In this document: piece by piece, positions 1 to 11,139 of the stretch
How the letters are laid out: every line of letters starts with the position of its first letter
Position numbering within the stretch: position 1 is the first letter of the stretch
Assembly (NCBI GenBank): GCA_913055825.1
Contig: CAJXKB010000019.1
Span: 1-39,177 of the forward strand
Length of the DNA: 39,177 nucleotides
Reading direction: 5' to 3'
DNA from: an uncultured Bacteroidota bacterium
GTDB taxonomy: Bacteria; Bacteroidota; Bacteroidia; Bacteroidales; F082
The notes under the pieces: generated by a model
The model's input: the letters and a program-made list of their open reading frames with translations, nothing else
Database searches by the model: none
Told to the model about the DNA's origin: nothing
Translations under genes and position numbers: made by a program

Positions 1-1242
1 ATTCATTTTATTCCAGATGATAAACTTATTACTTCTGAATACAATCAAGTAAGTTGGAATAATAAATATTTTATTGATGTTTTAAAAAAAGCAGAAGTTA
101 AAAATCTTGCAATCATCTTGGTTCATAATCATCCTGATGGAGTAAATAGATTTTCAGCAATTGATGACAATGGTGAGTATCATCTTTTTAAGTTAGCATT
201 TAATAGAAATGGAGGTGCCAATTCTCACGCTAGTCTAATTCTCTTACCCGAAGGCAATCTTGTTGGTCGAGTATGGAAGCATGATTTATCGACAGCACCA
301 GTTTCAATGATTAGAATAATTGGAGACAAGATAAAATTAAATTATCCTAATCAAACGGAAGAATATGAGTCTCCAAAGATTTTCAATAGACAGCAATTGG
401 CTTTTGGTCGTTCATTAATTCAAGATTTATCAAATTTAAAGATATCTATAATTGGCGCAGGAGCAACTGGTTCAGCAACGGCTCTTTTGTTAACAAGATT
501 AGGTATTGGAGAATTGTGTATAATAGATAAAGACACAATTGAAGAATCTAACTTAAATCGCTTACATGGAGCAACAATCTTAGATGTCGGCAAATTCAAA
601 GTAGATGTACTTCAAAAATATATTAATAATATTGGTCTTGGCACAAAAGTGAATGTAGTTAAAGAATGGGTATCAAATCAAAAAAGTATTGAGCAATTAA
701 AAACTAGTGATATTATATTTGGATGTACAGATGACCATGCTGGCAGAATCTTGCTTAATCGATTTGCGTATTTTTATTTAACTCCAATTTTTGATATGGG
801 ATTAGTAATTTCTGTAAAGAAACACTCTCTTGAATTAGAAAATTTACAAGGACGTATTTCATATCTATTTCCAGGAAGTGATTGTCTTGTTACCAAAGGA
901 TATATTAATATTGATATTGCATATTCTGAGAATTTGAGAAGAAATGAACCTGAGAATTTTAAAAAGTTGAAGGAAGAAGCCTATGTAATTGGAGAAGGTA
1001 ATCCATCTCCAGCCGTAGTTACATTTACAACTCAAATTGCAACTATGGCTGTTAATGAGTTTTTAAATAGAGTTCAAGGATTTAATCCTCAAGCTTTAAC
1101 TTCTAAGCACAAATTATTCTTCTTCCATCGTGGTATTGAGATATTTCCTGAGAATGTCGCAGTAAATGAATGTCGTATTTGTGGAAAAAGTAATTACTGG
1201 GGCAGAGGTGATATGGAACCCTTTTTAGATATGGTTATATAA
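1..1242 (+). CDS. JAB/JAMM - ThiF (E1-like) fusion protein, 5' truncated by window edge
   Basis: The frame is open from base 1, so the N-terminus lies outside the window; 413 residues are visible. The ATG-less stretch before base 118 continues the same frame, and the GTT-CAT-AAT-CAT-CCT region is inside the protein rather than at its start. A complete JAMM metal site H-x-H-x7-S-x2-D is present (H42, H44, S52, D55 of the visible part), as in Zn-dependent deubiquitinase-like isopeptidases. It is followed by an adenylating Rossmann domain with GAGATG (about residues 152-157), D-K-D...SNLNR (176-187) and GCTDD, the hallmarks of ThiF/MoeB/E1 enzymes. A cysteine in the PGSDC segment is the candidate thioester residue; the C-terminus has a CxxC followed by YWGRGD. 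The expected role is to activate a ubiquitin-like protein and remove or process it. The next gene starts directly at the stop codon. Family assignment is firm; pathway role is inferred from context. Confidence 0.88.
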   Translation: MHFIPDDKLITSEYNQVSWNNKYFIDVLKKAEVKNLAIILVHNHPDGVNRFSAIDDNGEYHLFKLAFNRNGGANSHASLILLPEGNLVGRVWKHDLSTAPVSMIRIIGDKIKLNYPNQTEEYESPKIFNRQQLAFGRSLIQDLSNLKISIIGAGATGSATALLLTRLGIGELCIIDKDTIEESNLNRLHGATILDVGKFKVDVLQKYINNIGLGTKVNVVKEWVSNQKSIEQLKTSDIIFGCTDDHAGRILLNRFAYFYLTPIFDMGLVISVKKHSLELENLQGRISYLFPGSDCLVTKGYINIDIAYSENLRRNEPENFKKLKEEAYVIGEGNPSPAVVTFTTQIATMAVNEFLNRVQGFNPQALTSKHKLFFFHRGIEIFPENVAVNECRICGKSNYWGRGDMEPFLDMVI

Positions 1243-1611
1243 ATGAGAAGACTAAATTTTTTAGAACGTAAAATTAGAGATATGCTATGGTCATTTAAGC
1301 AATTTCAATATAAAATTGAAATTATTTCTGATAATCCCAATCCAGATTCTCTTAAGAAAAATATTGTATATGTGGTTGGTGATAAAAACTATTCAAAGTG
1401 GGGTTATATGAAATGCCCATGCGGATGTGGGGATTTGATAATGTTATCTTTAAATAAAAATTCTTTTCCATCATGGTCAATAAAGCAGGACAAAATAGGT
1501 AGAGCAACAATTTCTCCTTCAATAAATAAATTAGACGGATGTAAAAGTCATTATTTTATACGAAAAGGTAAACTAATATGGGCTACATTTAATAATTACG
1601 ATGAACAATAA
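1243..1611 (+). CDS. DUF6527-like small Cys-rich protein of ubiquitin-like operons
   Basis: The 122-residue protein starts at the base after the stop codon of the JAB-E1 gene, so the two are translationally coupled. The central motif MKCPCGCG (about residues 57-64) and a later DGCKSHYFIRKGKLIWA segment give a Cys/His set that could hold one zinc. I recognise the arrangement (W/Y-x-K-CPCGCG-x-L near the middle, S-P-S-I, GC-x-SHF/YF-I-x-x-G-x-L-x-W at the end) as that of the DUF6527 family, whose genes commonly sit beside ThiF-type E1, E2 and multi-ubiquitin-domain genes. No biochemical function can be assigned from sequence. The gene is very AT-rich, like its neighbour, and ends only a few bases before an attC-like repeat. 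Confidence 0.75.
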   Translation: MRRLNFLERKIRDMLWSFKQFQYKIEIISDNPNPDSLKKNIVYVVGDKNYSKWGYMKCPCGCGDLIMLSLNKNSFPSWSIKQDKIGRATISPSINKLDGCKSHYFIRKGKLIWATFNNYDEQ

Positions 1612-4011: not shown

Positions 4012-5583
4012 TTAACCCGAATATTGGTCACGCAATACTTTTTTGTTTAGTTTTCCGGCACTGGTCAGCGGAATTTCATCTACGAAAGTAAAAGTATCCG
4101 GAATCCAGAATTTGGCCAGTTTACCTTCTTTCACTTTGGACAGGAGAAAATCGCGTAAAGCATTTTCTGAAACATCTGTTCTTTTTTTCAGTATCGCGAG
4201 AGGCCGTTGTCCCCATTGTTCATCTTTTTTTGGAATGACGGCTACCTGTGCTACCGCCTCATGTTCGGATATGATGGCTTCGAGCATGCCGGTTGGGATC
4301 CATTCGCCACCACTTTTAATGGCATCGCCTTCACGATCAGCAACATATAACAGGTGATTGGGATGGAAAAATCCCAAATCTCCGGTCCGGAACCAGCCAT
4401 CGATAAAATGTGCTTTTGTGATTTCAGGTTCCTTGAAATATCCGTTTGGCAGCCACGGACTTCTTACCCAAACGGCTCCCAGTGTTTTCCCGTCATGGGG
4501 AACTTCATTTCCCTGCTTATCGCGAATGGAAATTTCCACGAGTGGTAAGGGGCGCATCCCAACGCGACGCCATTCAAGGGCTTCTGCCGAGTCGGGTTCA
4601 ATATTTTCGGGAACTACCGAAATAGCAGTGGCCAACTGATCGGAACCGCCATAAATCAGGCTGAAATTTACACCGGCATCATGTGCACGTTTTGCAATAC
4701 CCGATGCAAACGGACTTCCTCCGGTAAGGATTTTTACATGACCGAAGTTTTTCTGCTCCAGCAACATTTGCAGTTGGGTGGGAACCATGTTAAGCCAGCT
4801 TACTTTTTCTTTTTCGATGATAGCTTGCTGTTTTGCAGCGTCAGCGGCTTCGGGTAAAACTAATTTGGCACCGAGATAAATAGGGAAAAAAGCCATACCC
4901 CAGGCATGAATGTGGAAAAAGGGAATCAACGGCATAAACACATCACGGCTGCTGACCCTTGCTCCGTATTTATGCAATGCCAGATGGTGAAAAAGCTGAA
5001 TAGCTCCTGTTAAGATAGTCTTGTGTTCGTAAGGAATTCCTTTGGGCTTTCCGGTTGTGCCTGTTGTGTAAAAAATGGAAAAAATATCTGTTTCTTTTAC
5101 TTCAGCAGCTTCAGAAATGGGGTTTTCGCTTCCTTCATTTACCAGATTCTCATAATGAAATGCCTGTTTGGCATCGGGAAGAGCCTGCGAAGTATCGTCG
5201 CTCATAAGTACCCATTTGGGAAATTTAGGTATGACAGGTTTTACAGCCGGGGCGAAAACATCTGATACAAAAATCCATTCGTCGCTAGCGTGAATCATAG
5301 AATAAACCATTTGCTCAGGCGCCAGTCTGAAGTTGATAGTATGCAAAACAGCACCCAGCATTGATAAGGCATAATGCATTTCGAGAAAACGGTGCGAATT
5401 TACATCCAACACCCCGACGACAGTCCCTTTTTTTACGCCGTGTACTTTCAGGCTGTTGGCCAATTTTAGGACACGCGAATGAAATTCACGAAAGGTAAAA
5501 CGGTGATTTCCCGATACGATTTCCTGTTCGGGATGGGCGATTAGCGCATGCTCAAGCAGCTGATGGACAACAAAATTTTTCAT
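4012..5583 (-). CDS. Fatty-acid--CoA ligase (AMP-forming)
   Basis: The 523-residue protein is a full-length adenylate-forming synthetase that would convert a fatty acid, ATP and CoA to acyl-CoA. The P-loop-like motif YTTGTTGKPKG is at about 171-181, the hinge motif GWFRTGDLG at about 396-404, the DREGDAIKSGGEWI segment follows, and the C-terminal catalytic lysine lies in SAGKLNKK near residue 514. Overall it resembles medium/long-chain AlkK-like ligases rather than acetyl-CoA synthetase, but the chain length cannot be read off. The gene is followed by acyl-CoA dehydrogenase in the same operon. No signal peptide or membrane span is seen, so it should be cytoplasmic or peripheral. The stop codon lies inside a 14-bp perfect palindrome at 4007-4020. 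Confidence 0.9.
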   Translation of the reverse strand: MKNFVVHQLLEHALIAHPEQEIVSGNHRFTFREFHSRVLKLANSLKVHGVKKGTVVGVLDVNSHRFLEMHYALSMLGAVLHTINFRLAPEQMVYSMIHASDEWIFVSDVFAPAVKPVIPKFPKWVLMSDDTSQALPDAKQAFHYENLVNEGSENPISEAAEVKETDIFSIFYTTGTTGKPKGIPYEHKTILTGAIQLFHHLALHKYGARVSSRDVFMPLIPFFHIHAWGMAFFPIYLGAKLVLPEAADAAKQQAIIEKEKVSWLNMVPTQLQMLLEQKNFGHVKILTGGSPFASGIAKRAHDAGVNFSLIYGGSDQLATAISVVPENIEPDSAEALEWRRVGMRPLPLVEISIRDKQGNEVPHDGKTLGAVWVRSPWLPNGYFKEPEITKAHFIDGWFRTGDLGFFHPNHLLYVADREGDAIKSGGEWIPTGMLEAIISEHEAVAQVAVIPKKDEQWGQRPLAILKKRTDVSENALRDFLLSKVKEGKLAKFWIPDTFTFVDEIPLTSAGKLNKKVLRDQYSG

Positions 5584-7244: not shown

Positions 7245-7793
7245 TTGGCACAGAAAAAGAATCAACTTTTCAGCAGTTATAAAGTCTTGCTTTTAAGTGG
7301 GAAAATACTTTTTATGATTGTTTTGGCCGTATTAGTTACGGCTTGTGGTGTTTATTCATTTACAGGGGCTTCCATTCCACCCGGCGCCAAAACCATATCG
7401 GTTCAGTACTTTCCGAACAAGGCTTCTTTGGTAGAGCCTACATTGAGCTCGATTTTCACGAATGCGCTTCGCGATAAATTTACTTCGCAAACCAATTTGC
7501 GCATGGTGGAGAAAAACGGTGACCTCGCCCTGGAAGGAGAAATTACAGATTATAAAACGACACCGGTTGCCATCCAGGCCGACCAAACTTCAGCTCTAAA
7601 CCGCCTGACGATAACCGTTAACGTGCGCTTCACCAACAAACTGGAGCCAAAAAAAGATTTTGAATCTCAATTTTCACAATTTGTGGATTATCCATCTACT
7701 CAAAATTTAAGTGAGGTAAAAGATGATTTACTGAAACAAATTGTAGAAGACCTGGCCGATAATATTTTTAATAAATCGGTGGTAAACTGGTAA
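7245..7793 (+). CDS. lptE: LptE family lipoprotein (LPS assembly)
   Basis: The 182-residue protein fits the Bacteroidota LptE family, the outer-membrane lipoprotein that plugs the LptD barrel during LPS export. After the lipobox LVTACG come YSFTGASIPPGAKTISV and YFPNKA, then TNALRDKF and LALEGEITDYKTTPVAIQ, the usual LptE core. The TTG start at 7245 gives a signal with two lysines before the hydrophobic stretch. The only in-frame ATG (7314) would leave just ten residues before the lipid cysteine and no positive charge, so TTG is preferred. It leads a block with a TPR-like gene, secG, groES and groEL, a synteny seen in many relatives. Confidence 0.82.
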   Translation: MAQKKNQLFSSYKVLLLSGKILFMIVLAVLVTACGVYSFTGASIPPGAKTISVQYFPNKASLVEPTLSSIFTNALRDKFTSQTNLRMVEKNGDLALEGEITDYKTTPVAIQADQTSALNRLTITVNVRFTNKLEPKKDFESQFSQFVDYPSTQNLSEVKDDLLKQIVEDLADNIFNKSVVNW

Positions 7794-7819
7794 TCAAATC
7801 TTTTCCATAAATTCGCAGT

Positions 7820-8659
7820 ATGAATAAAGAACAATTTATCGAATATTTGCAGCAATCCGAAAAGCTAAAGGAGGCCTCACTTTCCGATTTGGTGAATTTG
7901 GTAAAGGATTTTCCATATTGCCAGTCGGCCCGGGTGTTGCTCACGATGAAGTTGTATGTCGATAAAAATGTTCTTTATGATGCTGAGTTGAAAACCACTT
8001 CCATTTATGCCGGAAGCCGGAGGATTCTTAAAAAACACATCGATCGGCTTAACGAATCCACTGTTCGTATTGTGTTGCCCGATGAAGAAAGTGTTGAAAT
8101 AAACAAGCCTGAGGTTAAACCAGTGCAATCGCAGGAAGAGAAAAATATTGAAAAAAAACGAACGGAAACAGTTGACCCGCAAATAGAAAATGCTGTTGAC
8201 AGTTCGTTGGCTGAAAAAACTATTGATGTGAGTACACAGGAATCTTCGGGTCAAAATGTTGAGCCCGAGGCTACAGCCCGATCTTATACCGTTGAGGAAT
8301 TAAAAAAAATGATTGAAGACCGGATTCGGGCGATCGAGGCGGAAAAAAAACAAAAGAAAAAACAAGTACAAAAATCTTCAAAAGCGAGAAGCAATCAGGA
8401 TATTATAGAAGATTTTATTAGAAAAGCACCATCCATTTCACGGCCAAAGAACAGTTTTTACGATCCGGTTGATTATGCAAAGCAAAGTGTAGTTGATCAG
8501 CAAAACATTGTTAGCGAGACACTTGCTAATATTTATATTGATCAGGGGCACTATGAAAAGGCTATCCGTATTTATGAAAAATTAATTTTGAAATTTCCCG
8601 AAAAAAGTACTTACTTTGCAGCCCTTATTAAAAAAGCTGAAAAGAACTTAAAAAATTAA
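7820..8659 (+). CDS. Conserved TPR-like protein of the lptE-secG block
   Basis: This 279-residue protein has three parts. A conserved helical N-terminus (about 1-80) includes LVKDFPYCQSARVLL and ILKKHIDRL. A charged low-complexity middle (about 95-190) is rich in E, K and Q and probably disordered or coiled. A C-terminal TPR-like hairpin follows (about 229-275; SETLANIYIDQGHYEKAIRIYEKLI then FPEKSTYFAALIKKAEKNL). No signal peptide is visible, so it is likely cytoplasmic. It lies 26 bp after lptE and 12 bp before secG, so it is cotranscribed with envelope-export genes. Function is unknown; a scaffold role is a guess from the TPR. Confidence 0.75.
   Translation: MNKEQFIEYLQQSEKLKEASLSDLVNLVKDFPYCQSARVLLTMKLYVDKNVLYDAELKTTSIYAGSRRILKKHIDRLNESTVRIVLPDEESVEINKPEVKPVQSQEEKNIEKKRTETVDPQIENAVDSSLAEKTIDVSTQESSGQNVEPEATARSYTVEELKKMIEDRIRAIEAEKKQKKKQVQKSSKARSNQDIIEDFIRKAPSISRPKNSFYDPVDYAKQSVVDQQNIVSETLANIYIDQGHYEKAIRIYEKLILKFPEKSTYFAALIKKAEKNLKN

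Positions 8660-9471: not shown

Positions 9472-11139
<1,668 letters not shown>

Follow-up and report, generated by a model that had tools for sequence, protein, structure and literature searches.

The 39,177-nucleotide stretch analyzed here (the window) belongs to an uncultured Bacteroidota bacterium, and its bases 1-1611 very probably make up the 3' half of an operon of the Bub (bacterial ubiquitination-like) kind, Iyer type 6e, with the gene order bubA, bubB, bubCD, and DUF6527. The first base of the window is the end of contig C19 in a 3.1-Mb genome (145 contigs; 96.88% complete). The genes and sites given below for the window all lie on the plus strand. The first gene (1-1242) encodes a JAB-E1 fusion homologous to BubCD as a frame of 413 amino acids that is open at its 5' end, where it is cut by the contig end; the protein has 462 amino acids in relatives, leaving the window copy short of the first 49 residues. 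Translation and alignment place the JAMM motif of the JAB isopeptidase domain, H42-N-H44-x7-S52-x2-D55, at 124-165, followed by an E1-type adenylation (ThiF) domain at 385-1107 that contains a GAGATGS glycine motif, N-L-N-R, and FGCTD, and by a C-terminal CxxC pair (residues 391 and 394; 1171-1182) that is kept in 11 of 14 aligned homologues. The initial annotation had described a JAMM site and an E1-type adenylation domain in one polypeptide, and this single frame does hold both. It had also described an immediately coupled DUF6527-like protein, which is what follows: the ATG of a 122-amino-acid DUF6527 protein (1243-1611) comes directly after the JAB-E1 stop codon, and the protein has a zinc site predicted from its sequence, C-x3-C-x37-C-x2-H (residues 58, 62, 100, and 103).

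Profile searches identified the ThiF domain (PF00899, 124.1 bits; cutoff, 28.1) and DUF6527 (PF20137, 77.6 bits; cutoff, 23.6) well above their thresholds. The JAB part alone scored below its Pfam cutoff (PF14464, 15.5 bits versus 25), and its assignment is therefore made by motif, by alignment, and by the match to BubCD. The locus is AT-rich, as the initial annotation had noted, with a G+C content of 0.309 in bases 1-1500 compared to 0.341 to 0.474 in the other 25 bins of the window.

The identification as a Bub operon is based on the four-gene operon carried by relatives and on the match of the JAB-E1 protein to solved BubCD, which outscores sulfur-carrier enzymes by a wide margin. In a PDB search, the best match of the window protein was Citrobacter BubCD (9ea4), with an E value of 1.6e-41 over window residues 14-380, followed by Uba4 (2.6e-11), MccB (3.4e-10), ThiF (7.4e-9), and Cap2 (2.7e-7). 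A JAB-E1 profile built from 14 relatives matched BubCD at 1e-141, and an E2 profile, some rows of which include fused BubA domains, matched BubB at 1.4e-50 and BubA at 2.4e-14. One of the deposited BubCD entries is named D104A, and the altered residue aligns with the Asp of the JAMM motif.

Loci fetched for comparison are designated by L numbers, with L002 to L006 making up the window's own clade. The genome scan returned seven loci, five of which (L002 to L006) were 71 to 93% identical to the window JAB-E1 protein; L002 is 93% identical to the part that the window contains. The gene order in these relatives is ubiquitin-like (Multi_ubiq), E2-like (Prok-E2_E), JAB-E1, and DUF6527. The ubiquitin-like gene, encoding a single domain of 80 amino acids, is found upstream of JAB-E1 in all five; the E2-like gene, encoding 127 amino acids, is intact in four and split into two frames in L006. 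JAB-E1 has its length of 462 amino acids in the four complete relatives (L002 to L005), and DUF6527 is present in all four close relatives whose contig extends that far. Pfam matches in L002 were strong for Multi_ubiq (2.4e-14), Prok-E2_E (2.8e-40), and DUF6527 (2.6e-22); in L002, overlaps of 1 and 4 bases join the genes, and the DUF6527 gene follows JAB-E1 immediately, just as in the window. The initial annotation placed the modifier and the E2 beyond the left edge of the window, which holds for the close relatives; in the window's own genome, a search with the upstream DNA of L002 gave a 26-base overlap at bases 2-27 as its sole match and hit no other contig. The presence of bubA and bubB upstream in the window's organism is thus assumed by analogy with its relatives. 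Two peculiarities of these relatives deserve mention. L002, the closest, is an 8.5-kb contig from a metagenome-assembled genome labeled Clostridiales, whereas the other close relatives are labeled Bacteroidetes, which may reflect transfer or misbinning. In L006, the Prok-E2_E gene occupies two frames (7473-7854), and the E1 frame diverges from the others near the end of the contig.

With only the 3' half present, the window copy might be a decaying remnant, that is, a truncated and inactive operon, and broken loci do occur among the relatives: the E2 gene of L006 is one case, and in L049 the E1 frame stops early beside a recombinase-like open reading frame. However, both frames that remain in the window are intact, the JAB-E1 part retains its high identity to L002, all of the motif residues located on the contig are present, and the cut coincides with the contig end, so that assembly explains the truncation. 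We consider decay unlikely.

Ordinary sulfur-carrier metabolism, with a ThiF/MoeB-type adenylyltransferase carrying an accessory JAB domain, is a very improbable explanation. The adenylation domain is homologous to the ThiF and MoeB sulfur-carrier enzymes, and the top NCBIfam models were two ThiF models (79 and 77.1 bits) followed by MoeB (62.8 bits), but these scores are far below the equivalog cutoffs of 159, 275.25, and 449 bits, respectively. Among solved structures, BubCD leads by 30 orders of magnitude; the confident ThiF/MoeB placement named by the initial annotation as decisive against its proposal was looked for and did not materialize. In relatives, the enzyme is accompanied by Multi_ubiq, Prok-E2_E, and DUF6527 rather than by ThiS or MoaD. 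The JAB-E1 gene at the contig edge is the single ThiF-family gene in the window's genome at an E value limit of 0.001, and none of 11 same-genus genomes had a match to its product; the genus therefore does without this protein, which argues against a role in sulfur-carrier metabolism and fits horizontal gain. Equally remote is another ubiquitin-like defense system, either a type II cyclic oligonucleotide-based antiphage signaling system (CBASS), with Cap2 and Cap3, or Bil: the adenylation domain does score with PADLOC E1-E2 models (up to 63.8 bits, across 117 residues) and Cap2 structures match the window protein, but BubCD matches it 34 orders of magnitude better, in the window as in its relatives the JAB domain is N terminal to E1 in one chain that includes no E2, the E2 of the relatives is separate and has no conserved Cys, and the complete operons (L002 to L005) have no fifth gene such as a CD-NTase. 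Type II CBASS and Bil are recognized by an E2-E1 fusion (Cap2) or by a separate JAB protein. Both of these readings were rejected on scores and architecture.

Conserved residues were compared across loci in which the E1 fits the BubCD profile (class I) and loci in which it fits a profile of DUF6791-E1 proteins (class II); counts given for the two classes refer to the 36 class I and 12 class II loci that were fetched with flanks (48 in total). The H, H, S, and D of the JAMM motif are invariant in a 14-row alignment, and the pattern, with 7 or 8 spacer residues, occurs in 34 of the 36 class I loci (L040 is off by one spacing residue; L132 has none). The catalytic Glu (E26 in L002) is near-invariant in relatives and would lie beyond the contig edge in the window. 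The E1 domain keeps G-x3-T-G-S and N-L-N-R, and its sole invariant Cys across the 14 rows is in FGCxD or variants of it. Three further Cys residues (344, 440, and 443 in L002 numbering, the last two forming the C-terminal CxxC) are each found in 11 rows and missing from L041, L046, and L047; because they are kept together and lost together, they probably form a structural zinc site. The BubA domain ends in Glu-Gly in all 12 aligned rows. This Gly is the last residue in eight of nine separate BubA proteins, L044 having three residues more, and in three fused forms it is followed by the BubB domain. The BubB alignment has no column with three or more Cys residues but contains W-S-R-H in all 12 rows, a motif found in 32 of the 36 class I loci. 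In these alignments, neither E1 nor E2 conserves a catalytic-type Cys across the family, which suggests transfer without a thioester.

A plausible cycle for the Bub operon can be assembled from these features. The E1 domain would adenylate the C-terminal Gly of BubA with ATP, a step expected both by homology and because the Glu-Gly terminus is invariant in relatives. The tag would then pass to BubB without a Cys thioester, probably becoming ester-linked to the Ser within W-S-R-H, in keeping with the lack of Cys conservation, and would end on target proteins. The JAB domain of the same polypeptide that activates the tag would remove it and, in members with fused BubA-BubB, would also free BubA by cutting after the Gly. 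The DUF6527 protein may act on the conjugation side, as an adaptor, a substrate receptor, or an acceptor, since operons in which JAB and BubB have been replaced still retain it (see below). Work by Ye et al. in 2026 is said to describe an oxyester intermediate in Bub.

Several observations weigh against reading the locus as a four-gene Bub operon that works in this way. Neither BubA nor BubB nor the N-terminal 49 residues of BubCD were seen in the window's genome, whose copy may be a remnant. The profile did not detect DUF6527 in 7 of the 36 class I loci; two of these (L006 and L049) are truncated or broken, but five (L128, L131, L132, L133, and L134) are real misses, and DUF6527 is therefore not strictly required. 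W-S-R-H is missing from four class I loci (L132, L133, L134, and L135). The thioester-free route is deduced from residue conservation, and the invariant Cys of E1 could matter more than it allows.

DUF6527 is the interesting part of the locus and also its least understood component. A set of 395 Bacteroidota genomes that included the window's genome contained DUF6527 matches in 25, of which 19 were strong and 6 were weak (E values of 1.8e-4 to 7.4e-4) and probably unrelated. All 12 of the strong non-Bub DUF6527 loci that were fetched with flanks (L114 to L125) encode a different E1 of about 390 residues that precedes DUF6527. In L117 (5432-7278), Pfam identified Multi_ubiq (1.4e-14), a DUF6791-ThiF protein (DUF6791, 6.7e-51; PRK06153), and DUF6527 (3.3e-25). 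This class II operon of Multi_ubiq, DUF6791-ThiF, and DUF6527 was found in 12 genomes of the sample, compared to 8 with Prok-E2_E; none of the 12 were among the Prok-E2_E matches, and none of their loci contained a JAB pattern or W-S-R-H. Class II shares with Bub the modifier family and the DUF6527 family next to an E1 but carries an N-terminal DUF6791 domain in place of JAB. The seven class II modifiers that were read have Ser as their last residue, the Cys of G-[ED]-x-P-C is kept in all six aligned DUF6791 domains, and the E1 frame is split in two in L118 and L123. Among shorter stretches, an E1 likewise adjoins DUF6527 in L098, L111, and L112, and L103 has none within its 3.2 kb. Class II probably corresponds to the "domain X" subset described by Iyer et al. 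in 2006; neither DUF6527 nor DUF6791 was found mentioned by name in the literature searched. One IMG/VR contig (L154:3-3809) carries a class II operon with helix-turn-helix (HTH) and ImmA/IrrE-like genes upstream and an open reading frame that reads as integrase-like.

DUF6527 genes were also found in phage DNA, on the IMG/VR contigs L084 and L085, which represent one phage type (L084:4980-5285), and L156 (3998-4255). Weaker matches (E values of 7e-6 to 1e-3) were to Erwinia phage pEa_SNUABM_29, Thiobacimonas phage vB_ThpS-P1, and Dulem virus 40; the genes in the weak-match records are at L146:1965-2234, L147:2396-2692, and L148:2001-2285. Some of the phage copies resemble the Bub type and some the class II type, and no E1 was present in the stretches read around them. 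Searches of 50,697 phage records gave no match to JAB-E1 at an E value limit of 1e-5 and none to the class II E1 at a limit of 1e-3. Among 35 IMG/VR loci, Bub enzyme genes besides E1 were recognized by custom profiles only in L048 and L049; in 31 further loci only the adenylation domain matched, and in L080 and L081 nothing did at the threshold used. The DUF6527 core, C-x-C-G-C ... P-S ... C-x2-H, is kept in all 16 aligned rows, including those from phages, and in a separate alignment the Bub member L043 has a DUF6527 that lacks two of the Cys residues. The structure predicted for the window DUF6527 from 11 diverse rows had a pLDDT (predicted local distance difference test) of 84.8 and a pTM (predicted template modeling score) of 0.79; an earlier fold from 6 rows was poor (pLDDT, 52.6) and was not used. 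A fold search of the PDB with this model returned nothing at an E value of 0.001 or below (best, 0.22), and a single significant viral match was to an 89-residue protein (E value, 1.2e-6; TM score of 0.85 by target length and 0.63 by query length). The phage proteins are possibly antagonists or possibly ordinary phage zinc proteins. Two of the copies are near terminase genes (L147 by annotation, L084 by our own reading of its open reading frames), which makes an ordinary phage role as possible as an anti-Bub role.

DUF6527 thus stays with the E1 when JAB and the E2-like protein are exchanged and also occurs in phages without a detectable E1. A reading that joins these observations would have DUF6527, a zinc protein of a so far unsolved fold, serve the conjugation side of both Bub and the JAB-free DUF6791-E1 pathway as a substrate receptor or E3-like adaptor; the free-standing phage copies of both sequence types would be blocking decoys, and the whole four-gene Bub operon would move as one integron-like cassette in some Bacteroidota. 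As a whole, we regard this reading as speculative and rather unlikely to be right. Inhibition of conjugation by phage copies, if it occurs, would argue strongly for an antiphage function of both pathways.

The cassette element of this reading derives from the flanks of the operon. Directly after the DUF6527 stop codon in the window, CGCTAACA and CGTTAGGC flank a long stem (1621-1754), forming an attC-like site and a possible cassette boundary. The DNA fold of 1612-1760 is much stronger than that of shuffled sequences, with z scores of -4.78 for the bottom strand and -3.60 for the top strand. In L002 and L003, a box AAAGCACGAAACGCTAACA, which reads AAAGCACAAACCGCTAACA in the window, follows DUF6527, and the sequences part beyond it. 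At the other end of the operon, L002 and L003 align over the 74 bases before bubA, starting at ACCGTTAGC, where the local alignment ends. The boundary boxes are at 4383 and 1933 in L002 and at 9611 and 7160 in L003 and are absent from the corresponding places in L004, L005, and L006. Next to the site, the window carries a DUF6364 gene (1830-2087) and a PIN-domain gene (2090-2503), together a VapBC-like toxin-antitoxin pair (1830-2503) that is a neighbor of the Bub genes and outside the operon. A second copy of this pair is found in the window's genome on contig C45 (L176:2967-3640), where the likeness starts at most 5 bases from a CGTTRGGC core, beside a different neighbor. Both copies of the pair start shortly past such a core. 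On their sequence, the flanks look like those of gene cassettes, and the operon may be mobile as an integron-like cassette, although this is a lead only.

Integron attC sites have RYYYAAC and GTTRRRY ends by consensus, and cassette arrays without an integrase exist. The window site has the GTTAGGC end, but its left end, CGCTAAC, breaks the consensus; as a result, a strict attC scan of the 39-kb window and of L175 to L177 gave no site and missed the window's own. A number of results argue against a cassette. Three of the four sites flanking the operons of L002 and L003 fold no better than chance, and the fourth is weak (z score of -1.74; range, -1.74 to +0.95); two control stretches from L004 gave folds that were not significant. 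The downstream site of the window is the one with a significant fold. The right arm of the window stem (1679-1748) has a 94% identical copy on contig C1 without GTTAGGC after it. The integron integrase model TIGR02249 had no match over its cutoff in the window's genome, the best scoring 87.8 bits against a cutoff of 265.

Phage defense by the Bub operon is plausible but unproven. A 2026 study (PMC13373217) states, in the part of it consulted here, that Bub operons "have not been demonstrated to protect a host cell against phage infection"; the study also reports CapW or CapH plus CapP with 219 of 544 Bub operons and interprets the HTH-plus-peptidase pairs (CapH plus CapP) as DNA damage-responsive controllers. 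The portion of PMC4963859 consulted gives 70% of Multi_ubiq proteins as lying beside an HTH and ImmA/IrrE pair, interpreted there as toxin-antitoxin. Among the loci compared here, 20 of the 36 in class I and 7 of the 12 in class II carry a gene for an ImmA/IrrE-type peptidase no more than 5.5 kb upstream of the E1 frame, and a sigma-like gene was found in 7 and 3, respectively. These are presence counts and not independent tests, as the ImmA/IrrE profile was seeded with 15 of the 48 loci and the sigma-like profile with 5. In the window's clade, no ImmA/IrrE gene was found in any of the five loci (over about 7.8 kb upstream of E1 in four, and over about 2.6 kb in L002, of which about 2 kb lies above bubA), and the profile found no sigma-like gene in them. 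The neighbors of the L002 operon include Abi_C and AbiJ_NTD4 genes, and a long open reading frame beside that of L004 reads as a type I restriction subunit; judged by these genes, both neighborhoods look like defense islands.

Other surroundings vary. Near ubiquitin-like operons in L041, L044, L048, L117, and L120 there is a three-gene set encoding a sigma-70-like protein (about 185 to 245 amino acids), a protein of about 120 to 145 amino acids, and an ImmA/IrrE peptidase; the second of these proteins may act as a cleavable anti-sigma factor. The IMG/VR contig L048 (4930-9682) has a Bub operon with ImmA/IrrE and sigma-like genes, and the next genes read as Mu-like. Plasmid loci were sampled as 21 fetched from 162 records, picked for diversity and not at random. 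Fourteen of the 21 are annotated with multiubiquitin/E2, ThiF, and DUF6527 genes in that order, and L135 has one extra gene in between; in L046, L136, L142, L143, and L144, DUF6527 was detected by a custom profile only. The IncHI2A Enterobacter plasmid locus L047 (5090-9712) encodes a BubA-BubB fusion, BubCD, and DUF6527, and upstream of these a 368-amino-acid protein and a winged-helix protein, which may be CapK and CapS but were not confirmed by profile. A haloarchaeal plasmid from Natrinema (L134:5340-7904) encodes a JAMM-E1 protein and small upstream genes, and neither a W-S-R-H protein nor DUF6527 was found at this locus; by sequence it would be a distant Bub-like form. On a Nostoc plasmid (L139:5084-11247), the Bub operon adjoins a nucleotidyltransferase gene and a SAVED-domain gene, a CBASS-like neighbor.

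Viewed against known systems, the locus is a new, cut-off member of the already known Bub type, and its arrangement is not new; the initial annotation judged the nature of the locus correctly. Like the Citrobacter Bub system (PDB 9ea4, 9ea5, 9ea8, 9eae, and 9eav), it has JAB and E1 in one chain (BubCD), with a Prok-E2_E BubB and a Multi_ubiq BubA in its relatives. The window's clade (L002 to L006) differs in that its BubA has a single ubiquitin-like domain and its BubB is a separate protein, and it keeps the Cys set 344/440/443, which is absent from the Enterobacter plasmid homologue L047. The type 6e operon was predicted in 2006 by Iyer, Burroughs, and Aravind (PMC1779556), whose entry for it likewise combines a polymeric or single ubiquitin-like protein, an inactive E2/RWD-like domain, JAB N terminal to E1, and a metal-binding protein; Bacteroidota, to which the window belongs, are not in the row consulted. 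The metal-binding signature given in that source is C-x3-C-x(35-38)-H-x2-C, whereas the window has C-x3-C-x37-C-x2-H: it fits the C-x3-C-x37 part, and its last pair is C-x2-H rather than H-x2-C. The Synechocystis DUF6527 reads HCQCH at this position, which is compatible with both. The multiubiquitin cassette of the Synechocystis plasmid pSYSX (NC_005232.1), as presented in the consulted part of PMC4963859, has the same four genes in the same order, and its JAB-E1 protein is 42.6% identical to that of L003 over the whole length. It differs in its longer BubA (152 amino acids) and in a divergent HTH and ImmA/IrrE pair upstream that was not found in the window's clade. To these known forms the window adds a compact Bacteroidota Bub operon with a single-domain modifier.

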